Assembly (NCBI GenBank): GCA_963681505.1
Contig: OY811987.1
Span: forward strand, 2,490,604 to 2,554,603
DNA length: 64,000 nt
Direction of reading: 5' to 3'
DNA from: Eunapius fragilis
Taxonomy: Eukaryota > Porifera > Demospongiae > Spongillida > Spongillidae
Part shown: one piece after another, positions 23,001-52,584 of the stretch
How the letters are laid out: each line of letters starts with the position of its first letter
Numbering within the stretch: position 1 is the first letter of the stretch
Program-made: the position numbers and the translations under genes
Notes under the pieces: generated by a model
Seen by the model: only the letters and a program-made list of their open reading frames with translations
Databases searched by the model: none
Told to the model about the DNA's origin: nothing

Positions 23001-26000
23001 GGTGGTGATGGCTGTGGTTGAGGTGATGGCTGTGGTGGTGATGGCTGTGGAGAAGGCTGTGGTTGAGGTAATGGCTGTGGTGATGGCTGTGGTGGGGTCA
23101 GGGGTTGTGGTGACAGCTGTGGCAGCATGTGCCACAACCCTCTTCAGGGATGAGGGTGGCAAAAGCCCCGACAGCACCAGGGGACTTGAGGGCTCCATGT
23201 GGTTGGCCAGCCTCTTACACGCCTCAAGGTGGGTGTGGCTGAGGTTGGAGAACTGGGGCTGGGCCATCCTGAAGGAGAATTGCACCCCCCCCCCCCCTCC
23301 ACAAGGCAGATTGGTGGGGTCGCCATCGCATTCCCTGCTAGGTGGGACACCCACACTCCCTTACCATCTGCTGGTACAGCTGGCCTTTTAGGTCGGCTGC
23401 ATACGCCTCTATCTGGCTGGGTGCGAAAGCTCTTTGTTTTCAGCACCCTGCCAATCTCGAACCACACCAACACTCTCACAATGCTTGCTACGGTCAAGAG
23501 TGAGGTGACCTGTAGCACTAAATCCTCAAGAGAGGTGGGTGGCGGGAGGTGACACATTGTGAGCATGTTAACTGCCCTGTTGGCCGGCGGGTTCACCCTG
23601 GTGGAGCCTCACTTGTGCAGGGCCAGCAGGAGGAGTGGCCGGCGAGGGCGGCAGGGATAGAGGCCTTGGCCTTACTATTGCAGGGCTGGCAGGAGGGGTG
23701 GCCGGTCGACGGCGAGGGGGATGTGTGTTGCTTAGCTCTGCTACACTTCTATTGTGAGTATAACTTTCCCTGAAAAGAAGTCTATGCTACTGCCCCCATG
23801 CTCATGCAAGATGACCACAATGACAACATTTAACATTGGTGTTCGCCGACTGTGCACGACACAAAACACAATTGATTGTATGGATATGTGGCATGTGCAT
23901 GTGTATCAGTCTGTGGCAGGGGCTGAATGTGTGCTATTTAGAGGAGGTGGGCCCACACCTTCCTCAGGGGGAAAAATCTCTAACTGTGGGGAAAAAACCT
24001 CATTGAGGAAAAAATCATGCAGTGGAGAAAAGACCCAATACATTCTGCCATTGAGTCCAGCCACTACACTTCAGCTGTCTGCGTAGCCCTGGTTAAAGTA
24101 GAGAGAGCTCTGTGGCAATGGAACACACACAACACCAGACACGGGAAAAGCAACGTGCACAATCTGTTAGACTGACTTATAACTCTCATCCTGCTTTATA
24201 CCCTCCGTACTTTGGGTGCCACAATGTCACCAATCACCAGTCATTGTACAACTATACACCTGGCAGGAGCTAATTTCAGTCTAATTCGTTTCATCCAACC
24301 GACAGAAATGATATATCACAAAAACAAGTACCAAAATATTCATTTAATGCTTGTGCAGTAGATAGCTAAGAGCAGTTGCATGGCGTCGTGATCTGGTTTT
24401 CAACTTTCTCCCTTAATTTCGAAACCAATGCATTGGTTCTCCTCTTCATGATGTTGGCTGACTTGATCTAGAGGGCTGAGTGGTACGAGACCTTGGATGT
24501 CTGTTCCTCAATCTTCCAGAGAACCAGGAACGTACTAGTATCCATAAAGGTTTCTGCGATGCCTGGAAACACCCCCCCCCTCCTCCCCCCCCAAAACCTA
24601 GCTCGAAAGACTGCTAGGTTTGATTGTAATTAGTATAACTTAACTTAGCTGTACTTTTGTGTAATTAATCATTCTCATCCAACTGCATATCCATGGCAAC
24701 ACATCAGGTGATAACTCAGCATAAGAATACTCTTATGGTTGATGATTCAACACGAGATGACTGATCGACTGGTATGGGCTACCAACTCCTCTAATGACAT
24801 CAACTCCATCACCAACATCACCTGTCAATATTAAAGGATACGTGACAACTGGTCTGTTTGGGCAGTCTTACCTAATGTGGCCCGCTTCATCACAGCCAAA
24901 ACACACCCTGAAGCCCTCTGATCTGGGCGACAGAGGCTTGGCTGGACGGGGAGCATCATCATCGGAGTCTGCAGCCAAAGTGTCAGCCTTGTACTTAGCA
25001 ACAAGAACCCACCCAACTTTGAGGGGTTTGCAACCGTATGAGTTTTTTGTCTAAAACATTTTCTGAAAACTTCCTCAGTTCCTTGATGTACCTTTTTTAC
25101 CTTCTTTTATTATTAAATGATGAAAAGATATAATAAACACAAAATGAATATAATATAGCAAACATTTTCAGTACATACATAGCTTTCATCATTGGCTATG
25201 TGTTTATAGCCACCCTTTCTGGTCAATGTAGAAACTGAATTTGGAAAACTCTTTTTAAACATTTTTATCAGTGTTATTTCAAAAAGATCACTTTTTTGAT
25301 TTTTTTTCCCCTGCTGATCTCTTGGCAGGCAACTGTTAAAAATTGAAGATGGAAGGCGAAGGCGTTTTTGTGTTATATTGCGTCAGTGTTAGTGTTTTCC
25401 ATATTCTAGAGGCTTTAGCAAATGTGATAAGTGGGTGCTAAGAATACACACAGACCACGTGAATAATGAATATCGTTACACATGCAACGCTAGAGTTTGC
25501 TGACTCTCTTCTGGTATGCCTTTGAGTTAATGGAATAGTTCTTCACCTCTATTGTTAATTTATCGATTGGCTTAAAGTTATGGAACTTCTGAGTTCCTGG
25601 TATTGTTTTTGATCTGTCAAATCTATCACCCAAAAGGTCTGCTTCTTCTCTGTGTTCATTGGAGGTGACATAGCAGAAACTGATCCCCTTTATTTCTCTG
25701 ACAGCAAACTCAAATAGCTGCTTAGCATTAAGTATTTGATTTCCATCGGGATGCTGCAAACTAGCTTTAGTAGCAAGCCTTTTCAATGTCCCTGCCACGC
25801 CATCTGCTGCTCTCTTGCCATGAGAAGTGGCAAAAAAGTGCCATTCAGCTGGAACATTAAAATCTTCAAAGTGGTGGCACAGATTAATAAAAAAAATTCT
25901 GTTTTTGTATTGTGCTGAGCACCCATCTGAAAGTACAGTATCTTGTTAGGAACATGGGTAAAAGTTTCGGTTAAGAATTGGATCAGCTTTTTTTTAAACA

Positions 26001-29000
26001 AATGTACAGCAACTGTGTCATGCTCTGTATGTTCACTGATGATGACATAGCATTTGTGCTGCAAGCTTCCACCTGGATCCTGATAATAGCATAGAAAGGG
26101 ATGAACAGAAGTTGCATTCCAGTGGTAATACTGCACAGCATCTTGAACGACACAGGTGTAATTTTCTGAAAAATTGGCAATAACTATCTATTCATTTGAT
26201 CTCAAATTACTTTTTATGTTCAAAATGAAATTGCTCTGAACTTTTGCTATGAAATCATGGTACTGGAGCTTTTTTAGTACAGCCATAAATTCATCCAAAA
26301 ACTCCTCAACAGGTTGCACAACAGTTTTAAGACTGGATCTATTTGTTTGGGTCCATTGCTGGTACTGAATATACTCCACCACATTATCATCCATAATTGC
26401 TAGCAACTTTTCCTGCAATTTTTCTGTTCCAGGTTCCAGGGCACTGCTTACCATCTCATGTAACAATCTATACCTGGTGGGTTGCACATAATTGCTGCTA
26501 AACAGTGCCAATAGTGACTGATTGATTGCTGACTGAGTATGGGTAATTTGCTACCAATAAACATCAGTTTAGTGTTTTGGTGCAAAGTACAAACACAGAC
26601 AGAATGTGTCCCATTACCTCCTGCCAAAACACAATGCTTTGGTCTACGTGAAGCAAATGTGGAAAAACCTACTTTGACATTTGGATGAAGGGTTTTGAAG
26701 TGTTCATACAGTTCTTTCAAGCTACACAAAATCAGCCTTTTCTGCACATGTTCTCTCTTGCCTGTATCCATCATGATTGAAACATAGTCCTTCATCCCAG
26801 GCATCACTCTACTCATTTCATCACTTAGGTACATCTTCACAATTAACTGCTCCGTTGTTGGTGCAAGACCCCTGCCTAATTTTGGGTTAGGACTAGTGAA
26901 AATGCCCTTCTCATGAATAAGTTTTTTTTGCCTGTCTGACCATGTAGTCAGGTGCTCCAAACTCTCTCATTATTTTTCTCACAGACCAGCTTTTGGGTAA
27001 AATAGTAAGAATTTTTACCTTCTCGCTGCGGTTCTCTAGACATTTAAAATTTTCTTCCAGCTGTGCAATGATGTCACTTACAGCATCTTGCCCAGATACA
27101 TATTCACTTTCACTTTCACTCTGCATACTACTTTCTTCTGCAGTGACAGTACTGATTGAATGACATTCGTCTGCAGTGATATCAGCTACAGCTTCTGTAG
27201 CAATTTCAACTGTTGCTGGACCTGGAATGTCAAGATTTGCAGCACTTTCATTTGCACTATCTACTATAGGAAAACATGTTGGCTTCTCCAGTAGTAGTAG
27301 AAGTAGTAGTCACGCCATGTCCAGAGTAGTGTTGGTGTTCAGAAGAACCACTTGATACAGCCTCTCCTGGCAGCTTGTAGAGCTTTATACGACATGATGG
27401 GCAAAGCTTGTATTTTTTGGTCAGTTTTAATGATGGAAACTTGTCTATCACAAATTTGGAAACACATCTCAAATTGCGTTTTTCGTTGCACTTTCTCCTT
27501 CTGGAATGGCAACGCAGTGGATCACAGCAATATACGAAGAATGATGCTGACATTTTGAACAGGTGAAAATAAAAAGCGCCGAAAAAGTACTGCATACAAA
27601 TACTGGAAGCTTATTTTTATACTGTAGGTACCAATTACTGATGAACAGGTGTCAGGATGTGGAGTTCAAGGAGGGCGGACTTATGAAAGGGTGCCAGACC
27701 AGTAAAAGGGTGATAGTGAACCCTTCATCACGCATCCTGACACTTTTTCTTAAGTCCGCCTTCCTTAGACTCCTCATTTTCCTTCGGGTCAACGTTGCTT
27801 CATGACACTCATGGGCCGCAAATGGCTGGTCTTAATTGGTACCTACAGTATAAAAATAAGCTATCCAACTTTTTTTATGCAGTACTTTTTCGGCGCTTTT
27901 AATTTTCACCTGTTCAAAATGTCCTTGTCATTCTTCATATATTGCTGTGATCCACTGCGTTGCCATGCCAGAAGGAGAACGTACAATGATGACGCAATTT
28001 GAATGTGTTTTCAAATTTGTCATAGACTAATTTCCATCATTAAAACTGACCACAAAGCACAAGCTTTGCCCATCATGTTGTATAAAGCTCTACAAAAACT
28101 GCCAGGAGAGGCTGTATCAAGTGGTTCTTCTGAACACCAACACTACTCTGGACATGGCGTGACTACTACTTCTACTACTACTGGAGAAGCCAACATGTTT
28201 CCTATAGTAGATAGTGCAAATGAAAGTGCTGCAAATCTTGACATTCCAGGTCCAGCAACAGTTGAAATTGCTACAGAAGCTGTAGCTGATATCACTGCAG
28301 ACGAATCTCATTCAATCAGTACTGTCACAGCAGCAGATGGCGTGGTAGGGACATTGAAAAGGCTTGCTAGTTTGCAGCATCCCGATGGAAATATTCCACT
28401 AGCTCAAAGGCATACCAGAAGAGTCAGCAAACTCTAGCGTTGCATGTGTAACGATATTCATCATTCGCGTGGTCTGTGTGTATTCTTAGCACCCACTTAT
28501 CACATTTGCTAAGCCTCTAGAATTTGGAAAACACTAACACTTTGACGAAATATAACACAAAAACGCCTTCGCCTTCCATCGTCAATTTTTAACAGTAGCC
28601 TGCCAACAGCTGTCTAAATGATCAGCAGGAAAAAAAAAAAATCAAAAAAGTGATCTTTTTGAAATAGCACTGATAAAAATGTTTAAAAAGAGTTTTTCAA
28701 ATTCAGTTTCTACATTGACCAGAAAGGGTGGCTATAAAAACATAGCCAATGATGAAAGCTATGTATGTACTGAAAATGTTTGCTATATCTGTTTCACACG
28801 TGGAGAAATTTACTTTTGTGGTCAAAATTTCACACGTTCATATGTGCAGTAAACAAAGACATCAAAAAATTAATCAATTAGGTTTGAATGAACAATGATA
28901 GGACTGTCTCATATAAATAATTGTCTTTTCAAAAGTAGACAGGTGTGTTGAAGTGGTTAAGAGTGACCCATTTGTAGGTTGTGGTTGTCTCTATAGCTAT

Positions 29001-32000
29001 TGTTATACAAGTTTGGTTCATTACCTCCCTACGTTTATATGTATGTAGGTCATTGACAGGTTCTTCATAAAGAGGACAAAAGATTTACGGGGCTCGGTGG
29101 AATATTTGACACTGATGACAAGATCTCTGCAGACGTATCATGCAGTAAGTAGCCTGCATATGTACCCCTGGTAAATACGTGTATGTTATGCGTGTATTGC
29201 AGAAGGTGTGGATAATGCTGACCACCCACTTTCACTGTGTTTTGTGGTTACCTGTATGTTCTTTGCCATTATATGTATCAGGAAACAATTCATAAAAAGA
29301 AATTTAGCCATTTATTGGAGCAGCTGCGCAGTAACTATTTTTGCTTTAACGAATATTCAATCTGTTTAAATATTATATTGTTTGGTATGGTTCTGAAATA
29401 GACAATGGGTTTAGTACTATAATGTCTTCACAAAATGTTTTTAGTTTGTTACACACAGATGTTCTGAACATATTAGCCTTCAAATACCCAATATAACGCC
29501 ATTCTGTGGACACTTCTTTGTCAGCTGTACATTGCGTTGCCTCTAAGTCCCTTTACCATTTATATGTGATTAAACATTAATACTGTAATGATCTGTGTTC
29601 AGATAATGTCACTAATTATTTGCAACCTTGGTGAAATGTTTATGCTAACTAGCTGTGTATGAGAACACAAATGTGATTGTTGCAGTAGGAGATTTGATAC
29701 TTTTTACCTATAATTTTATGTGGGGAGTGGCAACACTCAGTTTCCTGTACGCCATGCCATGTGCCATGACTAGCATTGTGACTTACTCCTTAAAGTGTGT
29801 TTGTTTGAATTCATACCTTTTTCACAGTATAAAACTATTAAAGCGTATCCTCTTGATGCTGTGTTGCTTCTGAATAAGTCTGAAAAGCCATCAGATTTCA
29901 CTGTTCTCTGTTCTACCATGTTTGAGGAATTTAACAGTGCATCATTAAAAAACAAGGTACACTGCCTGCCTGTGGGTAATCGCACACCACTGCACCTTGC
30001 TAAGCCTACCATTAGGTCCTTACAGCATATGAGATGTTTGCGATGCACTTGATACCCCTTCCTGGTGTGACAGCAGAGAAGGCTCATGCTATTCTGGAGA
30101 AGTTCCCCACTGTGGCCTCGTAAGTTTTAAATGCAGTACCTGGGTATTTGTTATCTATTTTAGCTACAGTGCAGTTCCAAATGAGAAAGAGAATCATTTG
30201 TGTGGTTTTGGTTTTCAAATAGATTGCATAGCTCAGTAGATATATGACCTATGCAATTCTATGAGAGGTCTGGAATAGAGTACAAGCACACCGTCCATGT
30301 TTAAATGGGCGCGCATTTGCACAGTGCATTGACAGACAGTTCTACTTGTACCTGTTACTAGCAGATTCCAACACACCATGCAGGGTATGGTTTAACCCAA
30401 AAGGTAATTAATTTACATAGGCTGCAGAAACCCGAAAGCACATACCCAATGACAGAAAGTGCCAAGAGGTGGGTTGGGCATGTGTTCCCATTGCCGTGGT
30501 AACATACGGTAATTGGGGTCAAGAGGCAAAGCAGATATTCGATATTCTCATGATTGGAATCTCACCTGGCTACTGACTCATCACAACCAAAGTCAAAAGT
30601 TATTGCTGACCTTCTATGGATGCTTGAATGTAACCCTTATGAGGGCCATTGCAAGGCCAGAGCTTTCGTGCCAATAGGGCTGTTTACTTAAGTAAATAGA
30701 ATTATTTAATGCTGTTGGTAGTAGTTCAATGTGTGCATGCTTTATCGTATTCTAATATAATTGTACTTGTGGAACTGTTTCGTTATAAATTCTCTAGCTG
30801 ATGCAATATCACAGTTTATTGATCATAATAATAATTATTTTTATTTCAAAGATGCAATACAGAGGCAGCATTGCCCTGCTGCAATGGACATAGCTACTTG
30901 TGTGTAGTGAGTCACATTGGGACTAGGTCTATCACACAGATCATTAATAAACCTTCTGAGCACTGCAGTGTGTTACATTTTGTGCTCAAGAACTATTTTT
31001 TTAACACCAGTTCCATGTAAATCGAATGTTTTTTTGGCCCATTTTGTCGAACTCACATTTTGGAAAATTAGTCGGACGAGTGCTAACTGTCGCAACTTTG
31101 TGCGTAAATAGTAACCCAACCTTCTACACAATGTTTAGCTCCATTCTTAGCATTTTACATCATTCCGCTCTTTACCAGTATTCGTCAAAAGTGAAACGGT
31201 TATACCCGTCCCGAAAAAAAGTTTTGGGCCTTTTTAAAGTTACAAAGCTGTCCAAATGTTCTTACCTTAACAAGAGATGTTAGCTTTCCTACATTTTTCG
31301 ACTCTTTACTGGTACGGAAGCATTGGAACCCCAGCTGTACTAAGTAGCTAGGTCGCTTTAGCCTCGACCCAGGCCTAAATATTTGACATGGATGGCACGT
31401 TTTTTTTTACCGTAAGTTCCTACTGTAACGTTATTACAACTGCAGAAACACAGAGCACTGAAACACAACAAACACTGAACGAGCGACTCGTGAGACTGCT
31501 CAATACACGCACACCAAACAGTATATATACATGCACTACAGAATGTTCGAGAGCATGACCTAATCAGTAGTGCATGACTAACACATTATGTGTTATCATC
31601 CTATTCAGCCTTGTGTTCATCCTAGTCCAATGGTTACACAACTTCCCCCTTAGGATACTTGCGTCCTCGCAAGTTATACAAGTTATGAATATCCAGCCTG
31701 GTATCTGTCTGTTTGCCGTCTACCTCTATTTGGGTAGCGTCTTGTTGGTTCTTCTCTCGCATTCTCCGTACCATCTTGATTGTCATCCACTCCAGCAATA
31801 ACCTCCTCCTCCCCAACGTTCGGGTCTTCGAGTACATCATGGTCCCTATGATCTACGTCGGTCCCAACAGTTACAAAACCAGCATTGCCTTCTTGACTGG
31901 TCAAGCGGTCAATGGGTTGTTTCTGATCAATGGCTCCTGGAGGGTCAGTTCGACACAGTTTTAGGCGGTTCTTATGCACAACCTGCTTCTGCTGGTCGCC

Positions 32001-35000
32001 ACTCAGCTGGATCTGAAAATTAACAGCACTTATTTTGTCGATAATAGTGTACGGGCCTCTCCACAGAGAAGAGAATTTTCTGCTCTGGCCCTGTTTGACG
32101 GCTGGAACGTAAAGCCACACTCTATCGCCCACACAGAACAACTCAACTGAATTCTTGTCTGCTTCTCGTTTTTGCTTCAAATGTGCGGCTTTAAGTCGCT
32201 TGCGCACTTCCGCGAACAATGTTCTTAGAGAGGTCTGTGTTTTCTGGACGTATTCTGGTAATTGTCTTGTTTCAGTCTTGGATGAGCCCAAAATCACATC
32301 AATTGGCAGGCTTGGTGAATGACCATACATGACCGTGAAAGGAGCAAACCCAGTGGACTCGTGGATGGCAGTTCTGTACGCAAATAATACCTTTTGCAAG
32401 TGGTCATCCCAATCCCTTTGATGATCCAAAATAACTTTAGACAGCATTCCCTCTAGCGTACGGTTGAAACGTTCCACCTGACCATTTCCCTCTGGATGGT
32501 ACGCCGTCGTCTGGGAACGCTTGATACCTAGTTCACTGCATAGAGCCTGGATGACTTTGCTAACAAAATTAGAGCCTTGATCACTGTGAATAGCCTCCGG
32601 CACCCCAAATCTACACTCTATAAGAACTGTGGCTAAGGTATTACTGTCGGTTGTAATTAGAGGGAAAGCTTCTGTCCACTTTGTAAAAAGGTCTGTTATA
32701 ACAAGAATGTATTTGTTCCCTTTTAGTGTGGTAGGCAAAGGACCCATAATATCCCATGAGATTTTCTGAAACGGGTAGTTGCTGTTGATGGTCCCTAGAG
32801 GGGCTCGTGGTTGTGGTACTGGATTGTTACGGCATTGACATGCCTCACATTTCTCCACCTCTTCACGGATATCACGTTCATAACCAGGCCAGAAGAAGCG
32901 TTCTCGTACCTTTTGAAAGGTCTTGTAAACACCTAGATGCCCTGACTTAACATGCAGCTGGTCAAAGATCAACCCTCGCAAGCTCTTGGGTGCTACAATC
33001 TGCAATCTGGGGTTGGGGGAATTTGTAGACTGACGGCAAAGGACGCCATCTGCCATGAGAAACCTGCTCCCTCGTTCTAACTCACCTAAAGATTGCTTAC
33101 CATTTCTGATGGACTGAATGAGCCTAGCCGTAAACTCATCCGCTGCTTGCTCCCGTTTCATAGTGTAGCTTCCTGAAGTCGATACAAAACCTCCACAAAC
33201 CATCCCTCTTCCGCACCATAACAATCGGAGATGACCATGGACTTTTACTTTTCCTGATCACACCTTGCTTTAGCATCTTCTGTACCTCCGTGGCCACTGT
33301 ACCTTGAAGTGAATGAGGTATTCGCCACAAAGGTTCTCTAATGGGTTGTCCTCTAGTTTTTATTGAGTGCTTCACTACTGAAGTTCTTCCAAGAGGCCCG
33401 TCATCATATACAAAAAGATCACGGAAGTCATACAGGAACTTCTCCAGCTCCAGCTTCTCCTCCGGTGTAATATCGGACTGTGTCAGATCAATGGCAGGCA
33501 GACGATCGTTCTGTGCTACTGTTTCTGCGCGTTCGCCTGCAACGTTCATTACGTGGTGACCTAGGCTGAACAATCCCAGTCGCGTACCCTTGTAAAACGT
33601 AATTTCCTCGTGACCAACGTTGATCATTTGGACAGGCACTTCGTTATTTTCTCCGACTGTACTAAAGCTACGTGCCATTAACAACCCCTTTTGAGTGCTT
33701 GTGGGTTCCAATAGCCCTTCGTTTCCTTCCATCCCACCACAATTCTCTAACCTTCCCTTTACCAATGATTGTGACCGGGCTGGAATCTTAGTGGTCTGAG
33801 CCACGCTCACCGATAACGTTATGCTATCACCACACCCCATCTTTCATCCCCATGCGTAGTCCCCTGCGGCCTGCGGGAGAACGTTAGTTTATTTTCAGCA
33901 CAGTCAATGATTGCACCGTAACGGGAAAGGAAATCAATGCCCAAAAGACACTCGACGGTAAGCGTTCTGGCAACTACAAAAGAATGCTTTACACTAACTT
34001 TTCCAACAACTGCCAAAAGATTTACTGTTCCAAGTACGTCCAAAGGGACGCCGTTGGCTCCGACAGTGAGAGGTGCATCTTCACGTACGCCAGCCCGGGC
34101 TCTAGGCGAAAGAATGCTATAGCTAACTACTGACACAGCAGCACCCGAATCAATAAGGTAGCTTACATTCTGCCCTCCCAGTGTACCATGCACCCGCACA
34201 GAAGCACTTATGCAATAACATACCTGTTGCGCCCGTTGCGAGGCTTCAGGGTCATCCATATTCTTTTGAAGAGGACAGTTGCGCCGGAAGTGCCCTTCTT
34301 TGTTACAACGGTAACATCGAGGTGGCTGATATCCTTGAGTTTTAGTTGCCTTCGGTCCTTGAAGATGCAACTCCAGGGCTTCCATCCTACTCATCACTTT
34401 ATCCAATATCTCTCTCATGCCATCTATGCCCCCAGCTGTCACTGCTTGGACCTGTTGCTGGCTTTTGTCAAATCCCAGGGCCATCTCGATGCGGATGGCG
34501 TTCCTTACGGTATCCTCTATTTTTGTTGGAGTACCGCACAACAGGATCTGTCTGCTATATTGGAACGTAACCCCGTGATAAAACGTGACAAAAACACGCT
34601 AGATGAGTTCACATCCTCTTTCGGGTAGGCCTCAGCGAACAGCTTCCGGAGAGATAGCTCAAAGTCCCTCACTGATTCCCGATGCTCCTGACGTTGCTCT
34701 CTGAACTTAATCGCCGACACAAGAGGATCCTTTACCAACCCTGCCCTCTCTGCAAGGGATCTCTTGAGAGTGTTGAGGTCAACTTTCTCTGCACTTTCTC
34801 CGCATCCGAAAGGGACGTATAGGCATCGAGAAGCTTTCCCCTCAATAGGGCTGGAAGAACAACCAAATCCTTGCCATTTTCCCACTTATTGGCCACTGCG
34901 ATCAGTTCAAGTCGCTTCCACGGCCGGTCGTACTCTTCTGCACTGTCCGCATTGATTTCAGGTAGCGCCAAACGTTGGATTCCCAATGCCATATCCCACC

Positions 35001-38000
35001 GCTGCCACCAATGTAACGTTATTACAACTGCAGAAATACAGAGCACTGAAACACAACAAACACTGAATGAGCGACTCGTGAGGCTGCTCAATACACGCAC
35101 ACCAAACAATATGTATACATGCACTACAGAACGTTCGAGAGCATGACCTAATCAGTAGCGCATGACTGATTAACACATTATGTGTTATCATCCTATTCAG
35201 CCTTGTGTCCATCCTAGTCCAATGGTTACACTACATCCAGTGGGTAAAAGTTATAGATTGATACAATAATACAAAGTAAATTGCTCGATTGTAGTGTGCA
35301 TGTGCTCTGAAACACGCTTCAAGAGTTCAGGTTTGTTACCTGTCTTTGCAATTTTATGATGGCCGAGTTAGGCCTCCAATTCCTGCTTTTTCCACTGGGA
35401 CAAGTTTTCTCTAAATCCAGCTGCTCATAGGTTACCCTGGCCTTCTTTTCCCTTGAGGTTGGTACACGTTCATCACTACCCAGCTGGCATCCTTCCATGC
35501 TTACAACCAGCAGCACATGGAGCCCGTGGCTTCCTGCCAATGCTCTGGTACACTGCTCTGATCTTCCCTGCAAGTGGTAGCTCACTTAGTCTAATTAATT
35601 TTTGCTGCTGCAGTTCATCAAGCCTGGAAAACACACCGTCAACAGAGATCTTCACCTTACCCAGCTCTGTAGACTCTCCAGCTTTCCAACACAGATGTAT
35701 AATGCGGCTTACCTTGGAAGTCAACTCAGGATGCATGCACTTCCTGTTATGGGCCCAACCAGCATAGAAATTTGACTCAAAATTTGCATACGTCATCTCA
35801 ATGTCAAACATACTCGAAGCATGATCTATAGCACCTTCTACAGAGAAGTCCATTCTGGACAGAATCTGATTGGCATGCTCCATCGCATTACTGAGCACAT
35901 CTTGAGACATTACTACTCCACCACACACATGGTTCACAAGTAGCTGGTGTGATTTGAAATAGTAGAGACACTCAGCACACTGTGGGTACACCACCCGTAT
36001 CCTCTTCAAAGCATCGTCACCTTCTCTTTGCTTCTCCAGACACTGTATCTCTCGCTTGCTCATGCCCTTATTTCTCCTGGTGTATCGACTTTTATCTTTT
36101 CTTGCTTTCACACTGATCAATAACACAGTGACTCCAGTGAAGTTTATGCCTTCTGAACCCATAGGGGTACTCAGTGAGCAGGCATGGCATGAAAGAACGG
36201 GAACAGAGACAGATGGTACATTCTGCCCAAGACTGGGAGAACTTAATCTCCTGCTTACCATCAGTTGTTATGTACTGAGCTGCATAAAACTCAGATATGC
36301 CAGGTACTGAAGGTATCACAGTAGTACGGTATGTGTAACAGTGTTCGTAAAAAATATATATTAATAATGATCAGGCGCATGCGCAAGTACAACCATGACA
36401 ACACAAATAATACGTGTTATGCCACATCTCCCTTTCTTTCAAGGGTTGAGTTCCATCCAAATCGTTCAGGGGGACGAATCACTGTCCCTGTCTGTGACCG
36501 TGTCATAATTCTATGAGGTTCCTGTGGTTGGTGGTCTTGCTCCTGTTCATAGGTATTGGGTTGTTGTGGTTTCTCCACTTGTTCGGGTTCCTGCTCCAAG
36601 GAGTCAGGTTGTTGTGGTTCCTCTGCACCTTGCCTAACAACATTAGGCACGACATTGAGGTGGTGTCAATTGCAGCGTGCTAAGCCACCCTGAGTTTCCA
36701 CAATGTATGACTGGGGAGCCCCTGCCTTTCCCACCACTATACCAGAGGTCGGCTTACTCTTATCCGTTGTGATCCACACCTCCATCTGATCTGGAATATC
36801 TGGAAGTTGGTGGACTCTGTGGTGCCTGTCAAAATTGGAATTTTGGTGGGATTTAAACTCCAAGTCTTGCTCCTGAAATCGAAGCAAATAAGGCCATTCT
36901 GGTTTCAGATGTTCAAGGGTTTGTGGAAGGTTAGTGCGCAATTGTCTGCCCATCAGCAGTTGTGCTGGTGACAGACCACACCAGGGTAGTTGTGTGGAAC
37001 GGTAGGTGAGAATGGCTAGGTACGGGTCCTGATTCTCTTTGAGGATATTTTTCACTGTCTGAACAGTTCTCTCCGACAGCCCGTTGCTTTGGGGAAAATA
37101 GGGGCTGCTGGTGGTATGCTTAAAGCCATATGCGGCAGCAAATTTTGCAAACTCACGTGAAGAGAACTGTGGACCATTGTCACTGCGCACTGACTCTGGA
37201 ATGCCGTGCCTGGAAAACACTGCTTTAACAGCGTCTATCAAAGTGCTGCTAGTATTAGACCTGAGCTTAATAACCTCGGGATATCTAGAAAAGTAGTCTA
37301 CTATGACCACATAATTGACCCCATTCAGCACAAAAAGATCCATTGCCACACTCTGCCATGGGTAGTCTGGTAAAAGTGTTGGCATTAATGGTTCACGATG
37401 AGGCGTGGAATGCTTCACACACACTGAGCAGTGTTCAATCACATCCTTTATTCGTTGGGATATGCCAGGCCACCAAACAGAATTCTGTGCTCTAAGCCTG
37501 CATCGCACAATGCCTTGATGCCCATGGTGGAGTTTTGCAAGTGCCTCCTGCTGGAGAGACTCTGGCACCACAATACGCTTTTGGAAAAGAAGCAAATCGT
37601 TGTGTACTGATAGATCTCCTTGAACTTCCAGTAAGGCTTTAGGACAGGCTCAATCTTGTGTCTCTCTGGCCATCCATCTAGACAATGCTTCATCACTGCT
37701 GAACACACAGAATCTGCTAGCTGGGCTTCCGCGTATTGTTTTAACTGCCCCTCACTGGCTGGAAGATGTTTAATGCAAACTTCCATGATATTGTAACGCG
37801 GCCACGAATTCAACAGAGAATGCTGTTAGAATATATTAGCAGCACTTAAGAGATACAATCACAGCAGCTCACTAGATACAAAAGGACCTACGCTTATATA
37901 CAGATAAATGCACGTGCATACAGACAGACAGTCTATGGTTCAAAGGTGGACCACATCAGGTGATAATGTACATCTGCATTACACTGCTCCCTCCTCATTT

Positions 38001-41000
38001 GAGATGCTCTCTATTAATACCCATAATAGTCAGGTGGACGACGTGTGCATTGAGGGTACCGTGTGTTTGTTGGGCGGGGAATGAGTGACTGACGCCTATT
38101 GACAACAGGAGGATCTTCAATCGGAGGTGGTACATCAATGGGAGGTACAGGTACATCGCCAGCAGGTGGTTGTGCTTCTGGGAGTGGCTGTACTTCTTCG
38201 TCATCACTCATGATCTCCAACTGTTCACCTAATAGCTCAGGTTGAGGTACTCTGGCTGCAGACTCTTCATTTTGAGTGACTCTAGTTTTAGTTGCTGGAA
38301 CATGTGCTGGAGCTTGTATTCCTTCAATACACGGTTTCAGTCGATCGAAGTGCACTACTTGAGTACTTTTTCCTTTCAATGCTCTAATCTTGTAGTCACT
38401 CTCACCTATACGTTCTTGCACTCGATAAGGTCCTTTCCATGGATGATGCAGTTTCCTTGACTGTCCACGAGGCACCACTATTGAGTGCAGCCAGACAACA
38501 TCACCGACACTGTATGGTTTACCATGCACTTTCTCATCATAGAATGACTTCTGTCTCTTATGCTCCGCATTGCATTTCTCTCGCACTACTGCATAAGCAT
38601 TGTGTAAGGCATTCCTGAGCTCAGTAGCATATTCTCCTGCTGTGAAGCTATCACTTGGGCCAGTGCCATACATAAGGTCCACAGGAAGCCTTGCTTGACG
38701 ACCAAACATCAGATAGAATGGAGTGTATCCTGTTGACGAGTGAACACTAGAATTATAGGCCATGCACAGTTTTCTAATACACTGGTCCCAATCAGATTGA
38801 TTGTTCACAGTAGTTGCCAACATGTCCAATAAAGTTCTATTGAACCTTTCAACCATGCCATTACATTGGGGATGATAAGGTGTGGTATGTGACTTCTTAA
38901 TGTGCAGCAGCTTACAAACTTCTCCAATAAGTTTTGACTCAAACTGTCTGCCCTGGTCCGAGTGCAATTGTTCTGGAGGGGAAAATCTACAGAACATTTC
39001 ATTCACCAATTTCTCAGCTACTGTCACTGCCTCTTGGTTAGGTATAGCATAGACCTCAACCCACCGAGTGAAGTAATCACTAGCCACTAGTACATACCTA
39101 TTGCCATCCTTTGTCTCTGGAAGGGGACCCATTATGTCCACTGCTACAATCTGCATGGGGGACCCAGCCTGCACGGTTTGGAGTGCTGCTCTATTTTTTG
39201 GTGCACTTGTCTTCCTGGTAGCACAGCTTGCACAGGTTTTACACCACTCCCTTGCAGCTTCCATGCTTCCAGGCCAATAGAAGCGCTCCTTCAGACGGAA
39301 AGACATCTTCTCTTCTCCTATGTGCCCACCAACTGCACCACTGTGCAATTCATTCAGTAGAGTCGCCCGAAGTATAAAGGGTATCACAAGCTGGTGACCA
39401 CAAAGTTGTCCTTTTTGAAGTGATCTCCACAATGTACCATTTCTGACACACAACATTTCCCACAACTGGAAAAGGCGACGCCCCTCAAGACTCCAGGACT
39501 TGACTTCATCAGGATGTGGCTTGCGATCAAGTTCAACAGCTTGGAGCACTGGGCCCACAGATGGATCAGCCAGCTGCAGTTTGCGCATCTCTTTGGAGGG
39601 GTATGACTGGAATGGAAGATTAATAATCACACCTACTTGGGTTGGAACATCATCAGTTGGGTTGTGTGAATCACGACCACACTGTCTGCAGGGCATCCTG
39701 GAGAGTGCATCTGCATTCCCATGCCGTATCCCTGGTCTATGTACAACAGTGAAGTTGTATTCTTGGAGACGTTCTATCCAACGGGCAAGTTGTCCTTCAG
39801 GCTCTCTAAAATTCTGAATCCATATCAGTGAGCCATGGTCTGTCCTCAAGGTGAAATGCTGTCCCAGCAAGTAACAGCGGAAGTGGTGTACGAACTCTAC
39901 GACAGCAAGTAATTCTCGTCTTGTCACACAGTAGCGTTGCTCCTGTCTGCTTAATGATCTACTTGCATAGGCAATAACACACTCACTACCATCATCTTGA
40001 CCCTGAGAAAGGACTGCTTCTATGCCATTCTCACTAGCATCAGTGTCTAGGATGAACGTCTTTGAGTAGTCTGGGAAGGCAAGTACAGGTGCTGACACAA
40101 GGCATGCGCGGAGTTGATCAAATGCATTCTGACAAGACTCATTCCATTCAAATGTTACATTCTTCTCCGTCAATCTCTGCAGAGGTTTTGCGAGGGAAGC
40201 AAAATTCTTGATGAACCGCCTGTAGTAGTTCACCAAGCCCAAGAACTGTTGTATTTCCCTCTTGTCAGTTGGAGTAGGCCAATTGGACACCACCTCTGTT
40301 TTGTCTGGGTCTGTTGAAATTCCACTGGCTGAGACAACATGCCCTAGAAACCTGACTTTCTGCTGGCAAAAATTACATTTCTTAGGTTGAAGCTTAAGAC
40401 CAGCTTGCCTCAACCGTGTCAAAACATTGCCAAGGCAATGCAGGTGTTCTGAGAATGTCCTGCCCACAACAACAATATCGTCGAAGTACACCAAGCAGTC
40501 CGTCCACTTGAGATCATTCAGCACTCGATCCATCAATCGCTGAAAAGTTGCAGGTGCATTACAAAGCCCGAAGGGCATTACCTTAAACTCAAACAATCCC
40601 TCTGGTGTTGTAAATGCAGTCTTCTGCCTGTCTGCCTCCTCGACTTCCACCTGCCAGTATCCGCTTGCAAGATCCAGTGTACTAAAGAACTTCGTTCCAC
40701 CAAGTGTGTCTAGGGTGTCGTCCACACGAGGGAGTGGGTAGGCATCCTTCTTCGTGACTGAATTCACTTTTCTGTAATCAACACAAAATCGCATAGAGCC
40801 GTCTTTCTTACGTACCAGTATGATTGGAGAGGACCATGGGCTGTGAGATGGTTGGATGACATCCTTTTCCAGCATTTCATCCAGCATTTTTCTTACTTCG
40901 AGCCGACGAGCTTGTGGGACACGACGTGGTAACTGGTGTATTGGCTGGGCATCTCCTGTATCTAGGTGGTGCTTGATTTCTCCTGTTCGACCTATATTAC

Positions 41001-44000
41001 CAGGGTGTAAACTGAATACATCAGCATAATCCAAGAGAACAGAAAACAACATCTCTTTATCCCTGACACTGAGATGGTCACCAATCTTGGATACCATCTC
41101 CCACAGAGCCTTTTGATCATCGTGTGAGACATCCTTATCTCTTGATACGGCGTGAACATTGAGGTCTTCATCACCTGGAGGATCTTTCTCCAAGGCCTCC
41201 ATAGTGGCAATCCGGGTCCCTTTCTTCACCACCACAGCCTCCTTTCTTGGATTGAGCACTCTGAGTGGAACAGAACGTCCTGAAGGACTAACAACAGCAT
41301 GAGCAACCATTAGTCCATGGCGACCATGCCGGTCACCCTCCACAATCCAGGAATGATTGAATACTTGATGATCCAGCTCCACCATGATTTCCTGCTCACT
41401 TTCAGCAGGGATTAGCAACTTTTGCTTCACAACCAATCCTATCAGAGGAGTGCATGTGTACGGCTTCTGTTGAGTATTATCAAGTGATAGTGACACTCTT
41501 TGACATGGGAAGTCGATACGTCTCAGCCCGCTATCTATGACACATCTACACTGCTCCAAAAAATCTAGACCCAGGATTGCTTCAACTGACAAGTCATCTA
41601 CTATGACAAATGTAGCAGCCATTGGGGTAGGAACTTCAGCAAATTTCAATTGCACTAAACCTACTCCCCTTATACTAAGTGGTATGCCACTTACACCAAC
41701 CAACTTTTGTCCAGTGCCTTCCTCCAATTTGAGTTTGCTGTCCAATTTGGCTGCCTTAGCCCAAATGTCACTACGAAGGAGAGAAACTGCTGCTCCTGTG
41801 TCAATTATAAACTCAATTGGTAGGGTGGCTATAAAACCTTTCAAACGGTAACTTAACCCACAGCTTACTGACAGAGTGGGCACAGTTAAAACACTATTCT
41901 GGGTCCTTACAGGCTCTCCCCCTCGTGCTGGACCCCCTAGCACTGGAGGGTTGCAGTTTTCCTGCTGCTGTTGTTTACTACTGACTGGACAATTGCGTGC
42001 TATGTGACCCATTCCTCCACAACTCCAACATGTAACAGTACTTCTACCACCGTAACGCCCTCCAAACCTACGTAAGGGCGGACGCCCCTGGCTTCCTGAA
42101 CTTGGTTCCTGCAATAGCTTCTCTAAACGGTCTAGGCGCTCGACGAGCAGTTTCATTTCTTTCGTTCCCTCTGTTGACAGCAGCAACAGCTGGCTCTTTT
42201 TGATGTGGTACTGCACATACGGGCTCTGAATGTTGTTGAGTAGGAATGCTAACCGTGCCGGTAATGGACTTACTACTGCTATGCCCCAGATATGTCTCCA
42301 TCTCAATAGTGGTGGTAACAGCTGCTTCCACGGTTTTAGGACGCGTCTGCCGTACACTAAAGGAGAGATGAGAATCTTCAATCTGAGACAAAAATTGGTT
42401 CAGCGCAAGGCGTTCGCGGGCCTTTTCTTCGAGATCTGGGTACGCTTTATCCGCGAGTACTCTTAATGCGTCACCAAACGAAGCCCAGTCCTCGTCGTTT
42501 TGCCTCTTCCTAACCTGAAGTTCTGCCATGTGCAGGTCCCTTGAACTGTCGGGGTGGAAACGACGACGTAACGCATCTTTGCACTCACCGTATTTCGTAC
42601 GAGCGTCTTGCGCTAGCCTCCGGTACGCTGTATGAGCCTTTCCGGTAAGTCGCACTCGAATCCATTTCAGTTTCTCTTCGTCACTGTCCCACTTGTTCAC
42701 TGCTGCGCAGTCTTCAAAGTGCTCTATCCAGTCGTCCCAGCGACTAATTCCAGATTCGCCGCTAAAAGGTTCGGGTAGGAGAACTGGTCGAGCCATTCCA
42801 GCTGCCGACTACGCCAATGTAACGCGGCCACGAATTCAACAGAGAATGCTGTTAGAATATATTAGCAGCACTTAAGAGATAAAATCACAGCAGCTCACTA
42901 GATACAAAAGGACCTACGCTTATATACAGATAAATGCACGTGCATACAGACAGACAGTCTATGGTTCAAAGGTGGACCACATCAGGTGATAATGTACATC
43001 TGCATTACAATATGTTCTGCTTCTTCCTCTAGCGGCATGTCAGCCTTAGTGATGGACCCTGGTGCTTGAGACAGTGCATCTGCTGTGCACAAGAGCTTAC
43101 CAGGCACATGCTGAATAGTAAAATCGAAGCGTGCTAACCTCAGCCGAAATCGAAGAATTCGTGGTGGTAGCGTATCAAGGTGCTTTGATCCTAACAGTGG
43201 AACTAGCAGCTTGTGATCAGTTTCAATGTGGAATTTAAGTCCAACAATATAACTGGCAAACTTGTCACATGCCCAGACAGTAGCCAGTGCTTCTTTCTCG
43301 ATTTGTGCATACCGTTTTTCGGTATCTGACATAGACCGGGATGCATATGCCACAGGTTTCCATTCCCCATCACTTCTCTGTAGCAGTACTGCCCCCAACC
43401 CATGCAATGATGCATCTGCAGAAAGTTTGGTTGGTGCATCTGGGGTATAGAAGGCAAGCACTGTTGGTTTGCAAAGTTCGGCTTTAACCTGAGCAAAGGC
43501 TTCTTCTTGAGCACAACCCCATTGCCAAGTGCGGTTTTTGCTCAAGAGTTCTCGGAGAGGCCGCGTTACCTGTGCTAAGTTAGGTGAAAACTTCCCCATT
43601 TGGTTTGCCATTCCAAGAAATCGTCTCAATTCCATGATGTTACTGGGTGAGCTGAGACCTTCAATAGCAGACGTTTTCTCTGGATCTGCTTGGACGCCAT
43701 GTTAGTCAATGACATGCCCGAGAAAGAGTAGTTTCCCTTTCTCAAACTCACATTTCTCCCTATTCAGAGTTACTCCAGCATCACGGATTCTGTTTAATGC
43801 CGCTATGAGTTGAGTGTTATGTTCCTCTTTGTCCCTGCCAACCACTAACACATCGTCCATCTGACACAGGACCCCCTCAAGGCCTGCAAGGATTTTACTC
43901 ATTCGCTTCTGGAAGTGCTCAGGCGCACTGCAAATCCCAAACGGAAGTTTGTGAAAGTAGTAACGACCAAATGGAGTGATGAATGTGGTCAGAAGTTTGG

Positions 44001-46688
44001 ACCTCTCAGTCAAGGGTATTTGCCAAAATCCGGAATTTGCGTCGAGTTTGCTGAAGATTTTTGCTCCTGCCAACTGTGCTAAGGTTTCATCTACTTTTGG
44101 AAGAGGGTATACCTCCTGGCAAACATAACGATTTAAGGGTTGGTAGTCCACACATATGCAAATTGCCCCACCCTTCTTGGGAGCAACCACCATTCTGGCA
44201 CACCATGGAGTTGGCTCGTCTACTTTTGAGATGATTCCCAGTGACTCCATTCGCTCCAACTCCTGCTTGACCTTGAGACGCAATGGTAAAGGAATGTTTC
44301 GGGAGGTAAACAAAGCATAGGGCTGTGCCTCTGGTTGCAGCTGAATGTCATAGGGTCACCCGTGCTCCCCAGCCCCTGAAATAGTGTAGGATATTTTTCC
44401 ACAATAGTGTGAAGTGAAGCTTCCACTGTTTCCTCTAGCTTTGCCACCAACTTCAGAGCGAGGATAGCTGGTAGTCCCAGCAGGTTGGTTCTCAGTCCGT
44501 TTACTACGTACACATTCTGCTTGGTAGTTTTCCCTCGATAAAACAACTCTCCTTCAAACTGACCGATTACCTTTAAAAGAGTGCGTGCAGGACAGTACAG
44601 CATCTTCTTGGGTCTGTCTAGTTTAAGCCCTTTAAAAGCTCTGAAAGCCACATCCAAAATTGCTGTTACCTCAGCCCCAGTATCTATTTTGAACTCCAAC
44701 GTTTGATTGGCCAGCTTTAACTTCACTCTCCAGGTTTCAGGACTGTTTTGTATAAGTGTGTCTAAGAATGCACTGTCAAGGTTGCTCTCATCCGGTTGTA
44801 ACTCCGCCACTGTCTTTGATAGGCACTGTGAGCCATAGTGTCCTCTCCGCTTGCATTTATGACACACAGACTCCTTGGCAGGGCAAGTATACCAAGGATG
44901 CTGGCCTTTCCCGCATTTGATACACTGCTTAGGTGTTTGTTTTGGCTTTGCTGGTTTTGTCTTGGTGCCTTGGCCCCTAAGAAAGTCCATGGAGCTGTTT
45001 TCCCCCTTGAAAGAAGAGCCGCTTTCTGCCTCCTTGAGCACCTGTTGTTGTGTGTGAACCGCCTCTCTCTGCCAGATCATGGTCTTTGCTTTCTCTAGAG
45101 TGAGATCTGAATTTAGTTGAAGTCTTTCTGAGAGGGCTAGATTCCTAATATCGACAACAAGACAGTCACAGATCATTTCAGAGGTGAGCTGCCCGTATGA
45201 ACACTGCTCTGCCAAGTAATATAGTTCCGTGATGTACTGGTCGCCGGACTCACCTTCCAGCTGGTCACGTCTGTTGAAGCGCGCCCGCTCGAAAATGACA
45301 TTGTGTCGAACATGGAAATACTCATCCAGTTTTTCCACTACTTTCTTGTAGCTTTTCCTATCCTCGTCTGTGATACCCGTGGACACAAGAACCACTTCTG
45401 CCTCCTCGCCCATAGAATATAATAACATACTGACTTGCTTAGAGTCGGACTGTGTGTCGAGGGACGAGGCGATACGGAACTGTTCAAACCGCCGTTTCCA
45501 GCGGGTCCAGTCGTCGGTGTTCTTGAAGTCGAACGCTTCCGGAGGTTGCAACCGAATATCTGCCATGTCCAACCGTGGGTTTCAGAGAACCGCTGCCACC
45601 ATGTAACAGTGTTTGTAAAAAATAACACAGTTGTGTTGCAGACAGAGGTGGTCATTAGAGCTGTAGCAAGCTGCTTGGGGGTGGAGACCTTCCTTCACCA
45701 TCTCCCTGCACCAGATAGGCATCAACTTGTGTTTGTTGATGGGAAAAGTGGGCGTCACACACATCCTTGCCGCTCTGTGCCTCATTGTGGTAGTACACCA
45801 CTAGCTTGAGCCCAGCAGCTGAGCACACATGAGGCAGGAGCAGCTTAGTTTACTTGCCAGCAAGTTTTTTGGCATTGTCACTCTGCATGATTATCTTGGC
45901 AACATGTGGAAACCGCTGTCTCAAGGCATGAAGGGCTGCATCCATACATGACTAACAACATTGCCATCAGCCCTCTGCTCACCTTGAACAATGCAGTCAA
46001 CGATGCGTGCAGGGCAGGCGTATCATCTTCCATATCCTCCTCTTCTTGCACATCCTCATTCTCTACACCCTCTTGTACATCCTCATCTTGTACATCTTCA
46101 TCATCTTCCTGCATATCCTCATGCACCTTGCACACTATCTTGATCCTCTATAGATAAATGAATGGCCAATAATTGAAAAGTCTGGGTACAAAAACATTTG
46201 GGTCTGGGTACCGGACGAGAGTGTTTTGTGCGAGAACTAGGTAAGTTGTGAACATTTCACTTGTGCTATCTTTTATTGAGTACCTAAATACGTCTATGGA
46301 CATCGTCTATTTCGTTTGTAACCACTCTAGAAAAAAGTGTACTCGCTAGCATTCGAGCAATGAGAAACGCGCGACCGCGAAGCTAGGAATAGCACCAATC
46401 GTCGTAGAAAGAGTTGGGCAATCGGAATATGTATTTTTCAACTTAAAACAACGTTTTCCAACTAATTTTCTAAAAAGTAGGTTCGACAAAAAATACATTC
46501 GATTTACATGGAACCGGTGTTAATTGCACAATGAACTTTGAAGTGTTGTGATTTTTTTTCAGTTTGAGGTACTCTTACAAGCAGTGCTTAAGTGAAAAGG
46601 AACGAGAAAATCTTGTCAGTGATATTAAAGCAGGACGGGGGCAGAGGTGTGTAAAATGGATTGATGTTTTCAGAGGATTGTGACTTCT

Positions 46689-46732
<44 letters not shown>

Positions 46733-46795: not shown

Positions 46796-47595
46796 GAAGT
46801 ATAGGCTCTCATTCCCCACCACAGCACCTTTATAATACATTGTGTGTGTGTCTAATGTATTACTTGATATTGTACGTTCATTTTGTTATCAATTATACAT
46901 TATGTGAACTGCAATGAATATCACAGTGCTATAGTACTGGCGACCGCGTCATATTAGTAATTTGTGAACAAGGTCTAGAATTATCACGCATGCACAACTA
47001 AAAGCACAAAATAATGCATTTTTAGACTGCAATATGGGATTAAGTGTTAAGAGGAATACAAACTAAAAATTTGTAGGTATGCTTTTTGATGTTGAGAGAA
47101 TACCTGTATAGAGTATACTTTTAATTTTCGCTGCCTATGATGAATTGAAAACTCACAACAGTGCGATGCAGATTATGCCAATTCTCCTAGCAACAGTTCA
47201 AGAAACCTACCAGCTGTATATAAACGTCGTGAGGATAATGAAAAACTATCCTACAGTCGACATCCATATGTGTGCATGTGAGGCATAAAGAGGGAAGCAA
47301 CTTCATTTAATTTTATAGGTAAACGAAAATTCCTTGCATACCTGTACATGCCTTCAGCCTTCCTTACATTTTGTTATCCTTTTATAAATTGTAAATTCTT
47401 TCAGCATTCAATTGTAGCCATTATGTTATCTCAGTGCTAGTCCATGACTAATGTTTTATTGATGATTCATTGATATTTATTGGTATCACACTTATAAACT
47501 CATATACATTAACTAGGCACACTTCAACACAAATACCACAGTGGTACTACTAGCACATTAGTCAACATTGTTTAGCACACACAAATATACAATAT
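46796..47595. other. Tail-to-tail intergenic region, MUS81 / membrane-protein gene
   Basis: It must contain both 3' UTRs. On the minus strand two TTTATT (AATAAA) hexamers at about 47454 and 47476 lie 115-145 bp past the stop of the membrane-protein gene. No AATAAA is obvious for MUS81. Confidence 0.5.
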
Positions 47596-50500
47596 TTAGC
47601 GGTCCTCCATAAGTGGTTCTCGGCTTTCAGTTGAGCCATAGAAGTCTGCCATTGAGTCATCAAGCTTTTTCACTGTATCTGTAAAATCTGAAAATGCAGC
47701 TGCTGTATTTTTACGATTTGCATTGCGTGATATGCAGTCTTCAAATTCTGCTGCTACCCTTTTGAAGTATTTGTAATTTTTCAGTGCAACATAAACATGA
47801 TATGCCAATACCACTGCAGATACCAGCAATGCAATTAAAACACTGATCATAACGACCCAGCTGAGAGATCTGATGGAACTCAAGGAGTACAACATTGCAG
47901 CAGAAAGAAATATTACATTAACAAGAAAGAAAGTTTCAAGCAGATTCAGTAACCAATTCTTGTAGACTGAGAGAACATTAACCATACCGAGGTAAAAGGT
48001 AAGAACCAAGACTGCAGCAAAGAGGTTAACATTGATGTCATTGGCTTGATTAGTGGTGAACGCAAGGTAGAGGACAGCACGTATCATAAGGTGTACACCA
48101 GGCCAGTAACGGTACTGATCCTTGAATGGAGCCTGATAGGCATCAATGAAGGGCTTCAATTTATTCACCCACTGAAGGATCCTTAAATGTGACTTGGCCT
48201 GTAACCATGGTGCTAGAAATAGTAGAGAGGTGTAAGGAATGATGAAAACTGCAGCTACTGCTAATCCAGCTATGAAAAGTGAAACATGTTTCCCTTTGGC
48301 ATATAAAATGTTCCCATCAGCCAGCCAAACTGGTGGATTATCTTCAGCAGTGTTAGTTGTGTCTAACTTTGTAGATGAAAATATTGTAATAGTTGTTTGA
48401 AAAATTTTTGTGTATGAAAGTAAGATCAGTGTTGCCAGAACAGGTACTGCATTGCGCTTACTGAGCCATGCTAGTTTGGATGACCATCTGCTTCCAATGA
48501 TGATGGCCCCCACCAGGGCTAGGATATACAGAGGAAACAAGAACTGTAGCCAAGTCTTGTCATATGTGTCCATGCCGTCATAGAAACATGTCTCAATACC
48601 AAGGTCTAAGTTCAACCAATCTATAAATACAAAGAGAAACTTCTCAAAACCATTCAGATTGCTGGTTGGTAACAAGTTGATTACCCCAGGCCTGACTATG
48701 TTGGCATACAGGATGACGCCATTGATAGTTCCAACAGACACAGTACAGTTGAGAAGGAATATCAAGATCATCAGGACCACACCCATCAGTAAAATAGGAA
48801 TCAGAAGCCAAATATAATGACTAGTACACAGCTTGCACTGAGTACTACCAAATACTGCACTCAAGTTAGCTTTGCACCCTCCACACAAGACTCCACCATG
48901 GTTATGGTCACATTGTTCATCTTGGTTCTCAAGACTAAATGTTATGTCAGCTACATTGCAGTAATCGTAGGGACAGTGGGTGTGAACTGCTAAGGCTCCA
49001 TTTGAGCTGTTTCCTATCCACAGTGTACCAGTTTTGGAGACTGTTAGCTTGTTTATATCACACTGAATATTATGTTTCTGCAGGACACTCCCACATATGC
49101 ATGTTTGTGATGTTCCATCCCAAATAAAACCAAATGGACATGGATGAACTGTCACCAGTGTGGAGTACTTCAATGTACCACCAAATTGATTAAAATATGC
49201 TGTTTTAGGTACCAGAACTATTTCAAATGTATGGACAAAGTCTTGTTCTATAACCTTGTAGGTAAAATTGATACAATATGTTTTTGTTTGTTGTTGAACA
49301 TCAGACAGAATTGGAGTAGTACAATTCTTGCCCACACCACAGGTGTAGCTAAGAACAACATCTGGAGATATCCCATCCAACTGACCAACTGTTATTATCG
49401 GGATATTAATCGTTTGTCCTGGATACACTGCATGTCCGACACCAGTTGAAGAATAACAATCCACCGAATCATTTGTACAGCTGCAGACGGTTTGAGGAAC
49501 TGAGGATATTAATGCTGATGGGTTGCCATTATTAACAAAAGAAGCTGTTTTATTTAACACAGTGGTCATATTTGGGCAGTTCGCAGAGTATTTTGAGTAT
49601 TTTGGTGTAAATGTGCAATCGTAAGCACACCTATCAATATCCCCACCATAGAGTACATTGCCTGCCACATTTGCATAGTTAGATTCAAAGTACAAATGAA
49701 CTACTGGACTCTCTAGGGTACCATTGGAATCATGAAACATGAAAATACAATTTCCATTGCCACCTTTTGTGTAGGCATAAATGGCCCCCCCACTGTTTGC
49801 TGCAGTATTGTTCACAAATCTGGAATACAGTGGGGCTTTGAAGGTCACATCAGAATTATAAAGATAAAGTGCTCCTCCATCGCTTGCTCCCCTGTTGTTG
49901 AAGAGGCTGACATTCCCTGTTAGTTGAAGATGGCTGTAGTATAGCTCAAAGGCACTAAGCATGCTATTTGAAACCGAACTGTCAATGAAATCGATATAGC
50001 TTTGTGACGCATAAATGTTAGTGCGATTGAAGCTGCAATTTGAATATATGCTCTTGGTCATGTATGATCCTATTCCTCCATAACAACCAGTTGTAATAAA
50101 TGCAGAATTGTTGAACTTAACAGGAGTGTCACTTGAAACCGACAAACTCGATGACTGCAGAACCACATTGCCAAATAAATTGCATTGTTCTACTTGTACA
50201 ATCGTATTCATTCTTAGTTGGTTTGACATGTCTATCAGGATACCAAAATAATCATAGTTATAATCTGAAGAGAACGTTGAATTTGTTATCATAAGCAAGT
50301 CTGGATCGGTTCCAAAAGTGAGAGGTGAGGGATTGATGAAATAATACAAACCACCACCAGTCAAGCTTATTCCTCTAAAGCTGTTCACAGCTGATAACTT
50401 GATATCAGAGCTCATTTGGTTCACCTGAAAATTAAGATTGCCCCCATAAAAGGCTTGATTCCTGTACGCTACGGTGTTTGAGATACTGATATGAACAGTG

Positions 50501-51504: not shown

Positions 51505-52584
51505 TCTGTAGTGAGAGAGATGTTACAATTTAGCTTCTTATTGAGGCAGTGGTAATTAATGTTACAAATATGAAGTTGAGATGATACCATCAATCGAAAT
51601 ACCAGTCTTATATACTGACATTTTCCTGAGGCATTCTAGCATTAACATTCGTTTATTTTAGTTCTCATTTTCCTATGCATCCATATATTTTCTATGCTTA
51701 AGTTATCCGCAGCCAGTTTGAAATCCTATTAAGACTACAAACCATTTAGGTGTGTCATTTAAAAATACTTTCCACGCCTTTGAGACATTAATGTAATAAA
51801 TTTGCACATCAATATGGGGAGGGGGGAGGACTGGTAGGGGAGAAAGACTTGATTTCACAGGCTGCCTACATATAATATGGTACCATGCCATTTCAGTGAA
51901 CATACGTTTTGCTCTACTGTTCCGCTGGGTTCACCTGCGATTGTATCGTTCACAGTGGCGGATCAAGGGGGGGGGGGGGGGGGGGGGGGGGGGGTTTAAA
52001 GACCCCACGACGTGAATGGAATGGGTCTCAGATTTTTCCCTCGGGAACAGGTAGAGGTACAAGTATGTGTATAATACTAAGGTAAACAAACGTGTGTGTC
52101 GTTTAGACCAGCATGCAGCTTGGTCATGCTTCGGTCGGTCACAATGCATGGCTTCGCGTCACCAATTGAATTACTGAGCAGTAGGAACCAATTTTCTCGG
52201 CGCTGTTCACGCGGGCCGGGCTACTATTTTTTACAGATATCGCGCTTGCTTATGATGGTAATGCCACGTACGAATAGTTTATTTGGTGCGATATCACTGT
52301 CAAAAGTATGATCAATCTCATAAACGCGGAAGTAAAAAAGCGGCTGGGGCGAACTGGGGAACCTACAAGTGCCTCCCCCAGATACCCTTATATCGAGGGA
52401 GGGGCACGGCCCCTCCCTCGCTTATGAAATGGCTATTAGATCCCCAAAAATCCTGGTTCATAACATTAACTACTGCACGCGCGTTATAGTTGTATTTGTT
52501 TCATACGTATTAGTACAAGTTCGCTTTGTGCCGATTTAGCAGCACGGTTTACGGTGCTAGCTGGAAAAGCAGCTGATTTGCATT
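51505..52584. other. Upstream region of the membrane-protein gene
   Basis: No gene is recognised. A 28-G homopolymer lies at 51967-51994. TATATACTGAC near 51609-51619 and the 50-bp AT-rich stretch around it could belong to the promoter, about 105 bp upstream of the ATG. Confidence 0.4.
51967..51994. repeat. 28-bp poly-G run
   Basis: Uninterrupted G on the plus strand, preceded by GGATCAA. Confidence 0.9.

Follow-up and report, generated by a model that had tools for sequence, protein, structure and literature searches.

Results

MUS81 and Its Second-Last Intron

The window, which is the whole 64,000-nucleotide stretch analysed here (C17:2490604-2554603 of a 219-Mb genome in 24 contigs that was searched for sibling copies), carries a MUS81 gene on its forward strand. 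Positions 15134-15391 encode the ERCC4 nuclease domain; the genome's other two ERCC4 matches are on another contig. The exon peptides collected from 15.1-46.8 kb (237 residues) match Mus81 over 235 residues with E 1.3e-62, whereas their match to EME1 is weaker (E 7.7e-8), and the gene combines the ERCC4 nuclease with a C-terminal HhH2, Mus81-like rather than EME1-like. The exons at 29828-29956, 30016-30119, 46563-46646 and 46741-46795 translate in frame up to the stop. The second and third of these encode the first and second parts of HhH2, and the final exon, which also matches Mus81, ends in TAA. Indeed, a 57-residue peptide read across the 30119|46563 junction retrieves Mus81 structures (best 2ziu_A, E 3.1e-9), in agreement with the preliminary description, which had named MUS81 as the host gene and had proposed that the exons flanking the insertions remain in frame.

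Only the exons at 46563-46646 and 46741-46795 follow the insertions, which are thus in the second-last intron (30120-46562, forward strand; 16,443 bp, with a GTAAGT donor and the acceptor TTTTTCAG). Removing the outermost element (31005-46519) and one TTAA leaves 924 bp, in line with the earlier estimate that an intron once under 1.5 kb has grown to 16.4 kb. Outside that element, the intron contains a dispersed repeat at 30420-30762 (approximate ends) with at least 42 other matches in the genome at 75-86% identity, and is therefore host to a fifth, un-nested element that the first reading overlooked. Scanning 29500-47500 against Rfam yielded two matches, both far below gathering scores.

Other parts of the locus also carry repetitive sequence. 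The earlier gap, from the exon piece at about 15.8 kb to the one at about 29.05 kb (window 15810-29049), includes a reverse-transcriptase fragment (20612-21220), and at least two intron regions of MUS81 seem to have been enlarged by mobile elements. A minus-strand frame at 18915-19769 has weak matches to a beta-flower family and a phage gp5 trimerisation domain, the latter just over the cut-off, and is probably a repetitive, low-information protein. On the 3' side of MUS81, a minus-strand open frame of 1,308 codons (47599-51522) has a short Chlam_PMP repeat as its sole match.

Element X, the Outermost Insertion

The intron contains a nest of four elements, in which A and B both lie within X, and C lies within B. 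This arrangement is proven by genomic copies lacking the inserts, and the unoccupied A, B and C sites in those copies confirm that the nest is real and beyond chance. The coding strands of all four elements are opposite to MUS81. This would fit selection against sense insertions, although a common direction either way has a chance of 1/8, and an all-antisense set 1/16.

X spans 31001-46523 on the minus strand, as judged from its genomic relatives and coding remnants, including the TTAA copies at 31001-31004 and 46520-46523. As previously described, inverted repeats lie inside the TTAA copies; they match in 55 of 62 aligned columns (71 versus 64 bases, with a 9-base gap), and the termini read CACC...GGTG. 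The sequence belonging to X itself consists of 31005-31423, 35235-36333 and 45623-46519, about 2.42-2.45 kb in total. X inserted 39 bp from the 3' exon, and the acceptor and its T-run are native sequence.

X is repeated in the genome, where its left end matches at least 40 places, its right end at least 46 and its internal frame at least 152. We fetched 17 relatives, picked from the better matches to the ends or the frame rather than as a random sample. Four of these (L039-L042), about 2.5 kb long, align end to end or nearly so with X minus A and B, with substitutions in 5.6-6.4% of aligned columns; L041 and L042 have common flanks and may be one duplicated insertion. Two others (L053 and L054) reach about 5.0 kb and carry about 2.5 kb that is missing from X and its siblings. 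Since the sequence of X itself amounts to only about 2.42 kb and the longer copies have about 2.5 kb more, X is a non-autonomous deletion derivative (about 2.45 kb) of a 4.8-5.3-kb transposon. X as an autonomous transposon is rejected, given that the 2.5-kb siblings share the internal deletion and the 4.8-5.3-kb relatives carry a long frame.

Elements A and B, Inserted into X

A (31424-35230, minus strand) is an LTR retrotransposon, recognised from its LTRs, Pfam matches and sibling copies and Ty3-like in its remaining domains. It is flanked by a CTAC duplication (31420-31423 and 35231-35234), as had been claimed, and its LTRs (31424-31639 and 35012-35230) differ by substitution at 8 of 215 aligned bases, as reported, with transitions only, and by 5 gap columns. 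The insertion point is read through with exactly one CTAC in 5 of the 17 X relatives (L039-L042 and L045), and nine more (L044, L046, L048-L054) have both X sides without A; L043, L047 and L055 leave the site uncovered, so that all 14 relatives covering it are without A. Protease and integrase were matched in the A frames, and no match to reverse transcriptase (RVT_1) or RNase H was found in the five frames scanned. Furthermore, A measures 3.81 kb, compared with 5.1-5.2 kb for two other LTR pairs of its family. By these matches and lengths, A is an internally deleted copy that appears to have lost the part encoding reverse transcriptase and RNase H.

B (36334-45624, minus strand) is a Ty3-like LTR retrotransposon interrupted by C, with reverse transcriptase, RNase H and integrase in that order (Pfam; frames 43705-44355, 42985-43701 and 36669-37649). 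Its left LTR (36334-36426) is 93 bp long, and about 23 bp of the right LTR are kept (45602-45624), X resuming at about 45623 with a 2-bp TA overlap. B is missing from all 11 X relatives that cover its site, the other 6 of the 17 not covering it. In L039-L043 and L049, the two X points are separated by 25 bp that have been lost here. A target-site duplication is not demonstrable at the ends of B. The preliminary description had held each step of the nest to be shown by the element's own ends, and this is borne out for X (TTAA), A (CTAC) and C (ATAT) but not for B, whose step consequently rests on the X siblings.

The truncated right LTR, the missing duplication, the lost X bases and the TA overlap could also be accounted for if B had reached this site by recombination or end joining instead of through its integrase. 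We regard this as unlikely, since B starts on its left precisely with the LTR terminus TGTAAC, the outcome expected of integration, and a later small deletion on the right explains the remainder. The right end of B is a deletion junction.

Element C, Inserted into B

C (37792-43009, minus strand), identified from its LTRs, Pfam matches and B copies, is a Ty3-like LTR retrotransposon with an open pol frame of 1,461 codons (38017-42399), which has the order reverse transcriptase, RNase H, integrase (Pfam). A gag-like frame (42071-42808) overlaps this pol frame in a different reading frame. The ATAT duplication on both sides (37788-37791 and 43010-43013) and the single substitution in 192 between the LTRs (37792-37983 and 42818-43009) are as first reported. 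To examine the C site we drew on five stretches of B copies; one (L078) left it uncovered, and all four that cover it (L074-L077) have a single ATAT without C. The C LTR, used as a query, finds 19 genomic places. These form nine pairs, with a spacing of about 5.0 kb in eight, plus a solitary copy. Most of the pairs are 97-100% like the query, which indicates that C comes from a recently spread family.

Order of Events

By their positions, C came later than B, and A and B came either later than X or together with it. The LTR divergences, which had been taken to order the last steps, are correct as counts, but the difference between 8/215 and 1/192 gives only a weak separation of A and C (Fisher p = 0.04, equal rates assumed), tentatively suggesting that A is the older, and B cannot be placed with about 23 bp of its right LTR left.

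The nesting, the insertion sites and the intact exon frame are seen directly in the DNA, and we are nearly certain that they arose through a chain of ordinary transposition events, one inside another. In the proposed order, X, flanked by TTAA and presumably mobilised by a transposase made elsewhere, would have entered an intron of about 0.92 kb at a point 39 bp short of the 3' exon. A would then have inserted into X, duplicating CTAC, and B would have inserted into X as well. A small deletion on the right side, during or after the B insertion, would have removed about 70 bp of the B LTR, any target duplication and the 25 bp of X. Finally, C would have inserted into B recently, duplicating ATAT. 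The native 39 bp, with polypyrimidine tract and AG, would have stayed untouched, leaving splicing of MUS81 across the nest possible, and presumably it still works.

X likely carried no insert at the time of its arrival in MUS81. Sequence by itself gives no date for that arrival with respect to A and B, and X might have come already loaded with A, and perhaps B, the compound element moving as one. This is quite improbable, however, given that A is absent from all 14 X relatives that cover its site and B from all 11 that cover its own, and that a loaded element would exceed the sibling length several times. Repeats of this kind are difficult to assemble, but an assembly artefact is scarcely credible and is rejected: the window contains no N, the target-site duplications are exact, and the junctions fall at bases where the siblings, with empty sites, run on uninterrupted. 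The preferred reading thus remains stepwise transposition.

The X Family

Seven longer relatives of X (L053, L054, L083-L087) are 4.8-5.3 kb long and have TTAA at both ends in every case; duplication of a TTAA target would fit these ends, and no empty target was found. All seven have the ends TTAACACC and GGTGTTAA and encode single proteins of 1,289-1,376 residues, those of L053 and L054 being near-identical, as are those of L083 and L087. The proteins start with a cysteine cluster in the N-terminal part, continue with a C2H2-like finger and carry SAP at the C terminus. Among the residues that do not vary are D632, D917 and C957-D958-x-H960 (L053 numbering); the CDxH motif (C957-H960) is invariant in seven proteins. 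In an alignment of seven members, consisting of six long proteins and the fragment from the window, SAP is matched at E 0.1 or better in six (best 7.5e-10); for L053 on its own, the SAP score is under the Pfam cut-off. Several genomic copies share identical match scores and frame lengths, which suggests that the family may have moved recently.

Searches for a known relative gave little. At E 0.1, Pfam offers no transposase family for the seven members, nor a piggyBac domain, and comparison with the PDB (including a profile search) and NCBIfam returns nothing except a SAP-like match at E 0.37. Pattern searches of viral and genome contig collections gave 33 and 64 matches, of which none was confirmed as an X relative, and a literature search for a superfamily of TTAA-targeting, SAP-domain transposases found no paper.

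Discussion

TTAA targets are found in more than one group of DNA transposons, and Sola3 transposons are also said to use TTAA. The piggyBac elements have terminal CC[C/T]T with TTAA at both ends (PMC2872659). X shares the TTAA but has CACC in place of terminal CC[C/T]T and is without a piggyBac domain in Pfam at E 0.1, so an assignment to piggyBac is rejected. Kolobok elements are described as having a TTAA target-site duplication, 5'-RR...YY-3' termini and a C/DxxH motif between the second D and the last E (PMC9587614). X has in common with them TTAA at both ends, a CxxH after an invariant D and a zinc-finger-like C/H cluster further on; it differs in its CA...TG ends, its C-terminal SAP domain and the absence of a transposase match in Pfam or the PDB. 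A typical Kolobok is rejected on its termini, which are CACC...GGTG and not 5'-RR...YY-3'. We put forward only tentatively, as a possibility that we ourselves doubt, that the X family represents a recently active lineage of TTAA-targeting DNA transposons that has yet to be described, with 4.8-5.3-kb copies that would encode single SAP proteins of 1,289-1,376 residues with a cysteine cluster, D, D, CDxH and a C2H2-like finger. Repeated, apparently recently mobile and without a transposase domain by sequence search, this family merits proper classification and is the least ordinary part of the nest.

A literature search for sponge MUS81 and transposable elements found nothing pertinent by title; nested insertions as such are the topic of PMC3903597. 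The nest provides a clean stepwise record of an intron that went from about 0.9 to 16.4 kb with its exons untouched, one insertion lying only 39 bp from the 3' splice site. Among nested transposons it is a clear example but an ordinary one, and no principle is changed by it. Insertions nested one in another, LTR retrotransposons among them, are already known, with those of maize as the type. As in Ty3-type LTR retrotransposons, integrase in B and C comes after reverse transcriptase and RNase H, and the LTRs start with TGTAAC, whereas A is without its reverse transcriptase and RNase H part and B is cut at its right end. As in nests of the maize type, younger elements lie in older ones, target-site duplications mark the steps, and the younger LTR pairs are more alike; the MUS81 nest differs in that an animal gene contains all of it within one intron and in having a DNA transposon as its outermost element.
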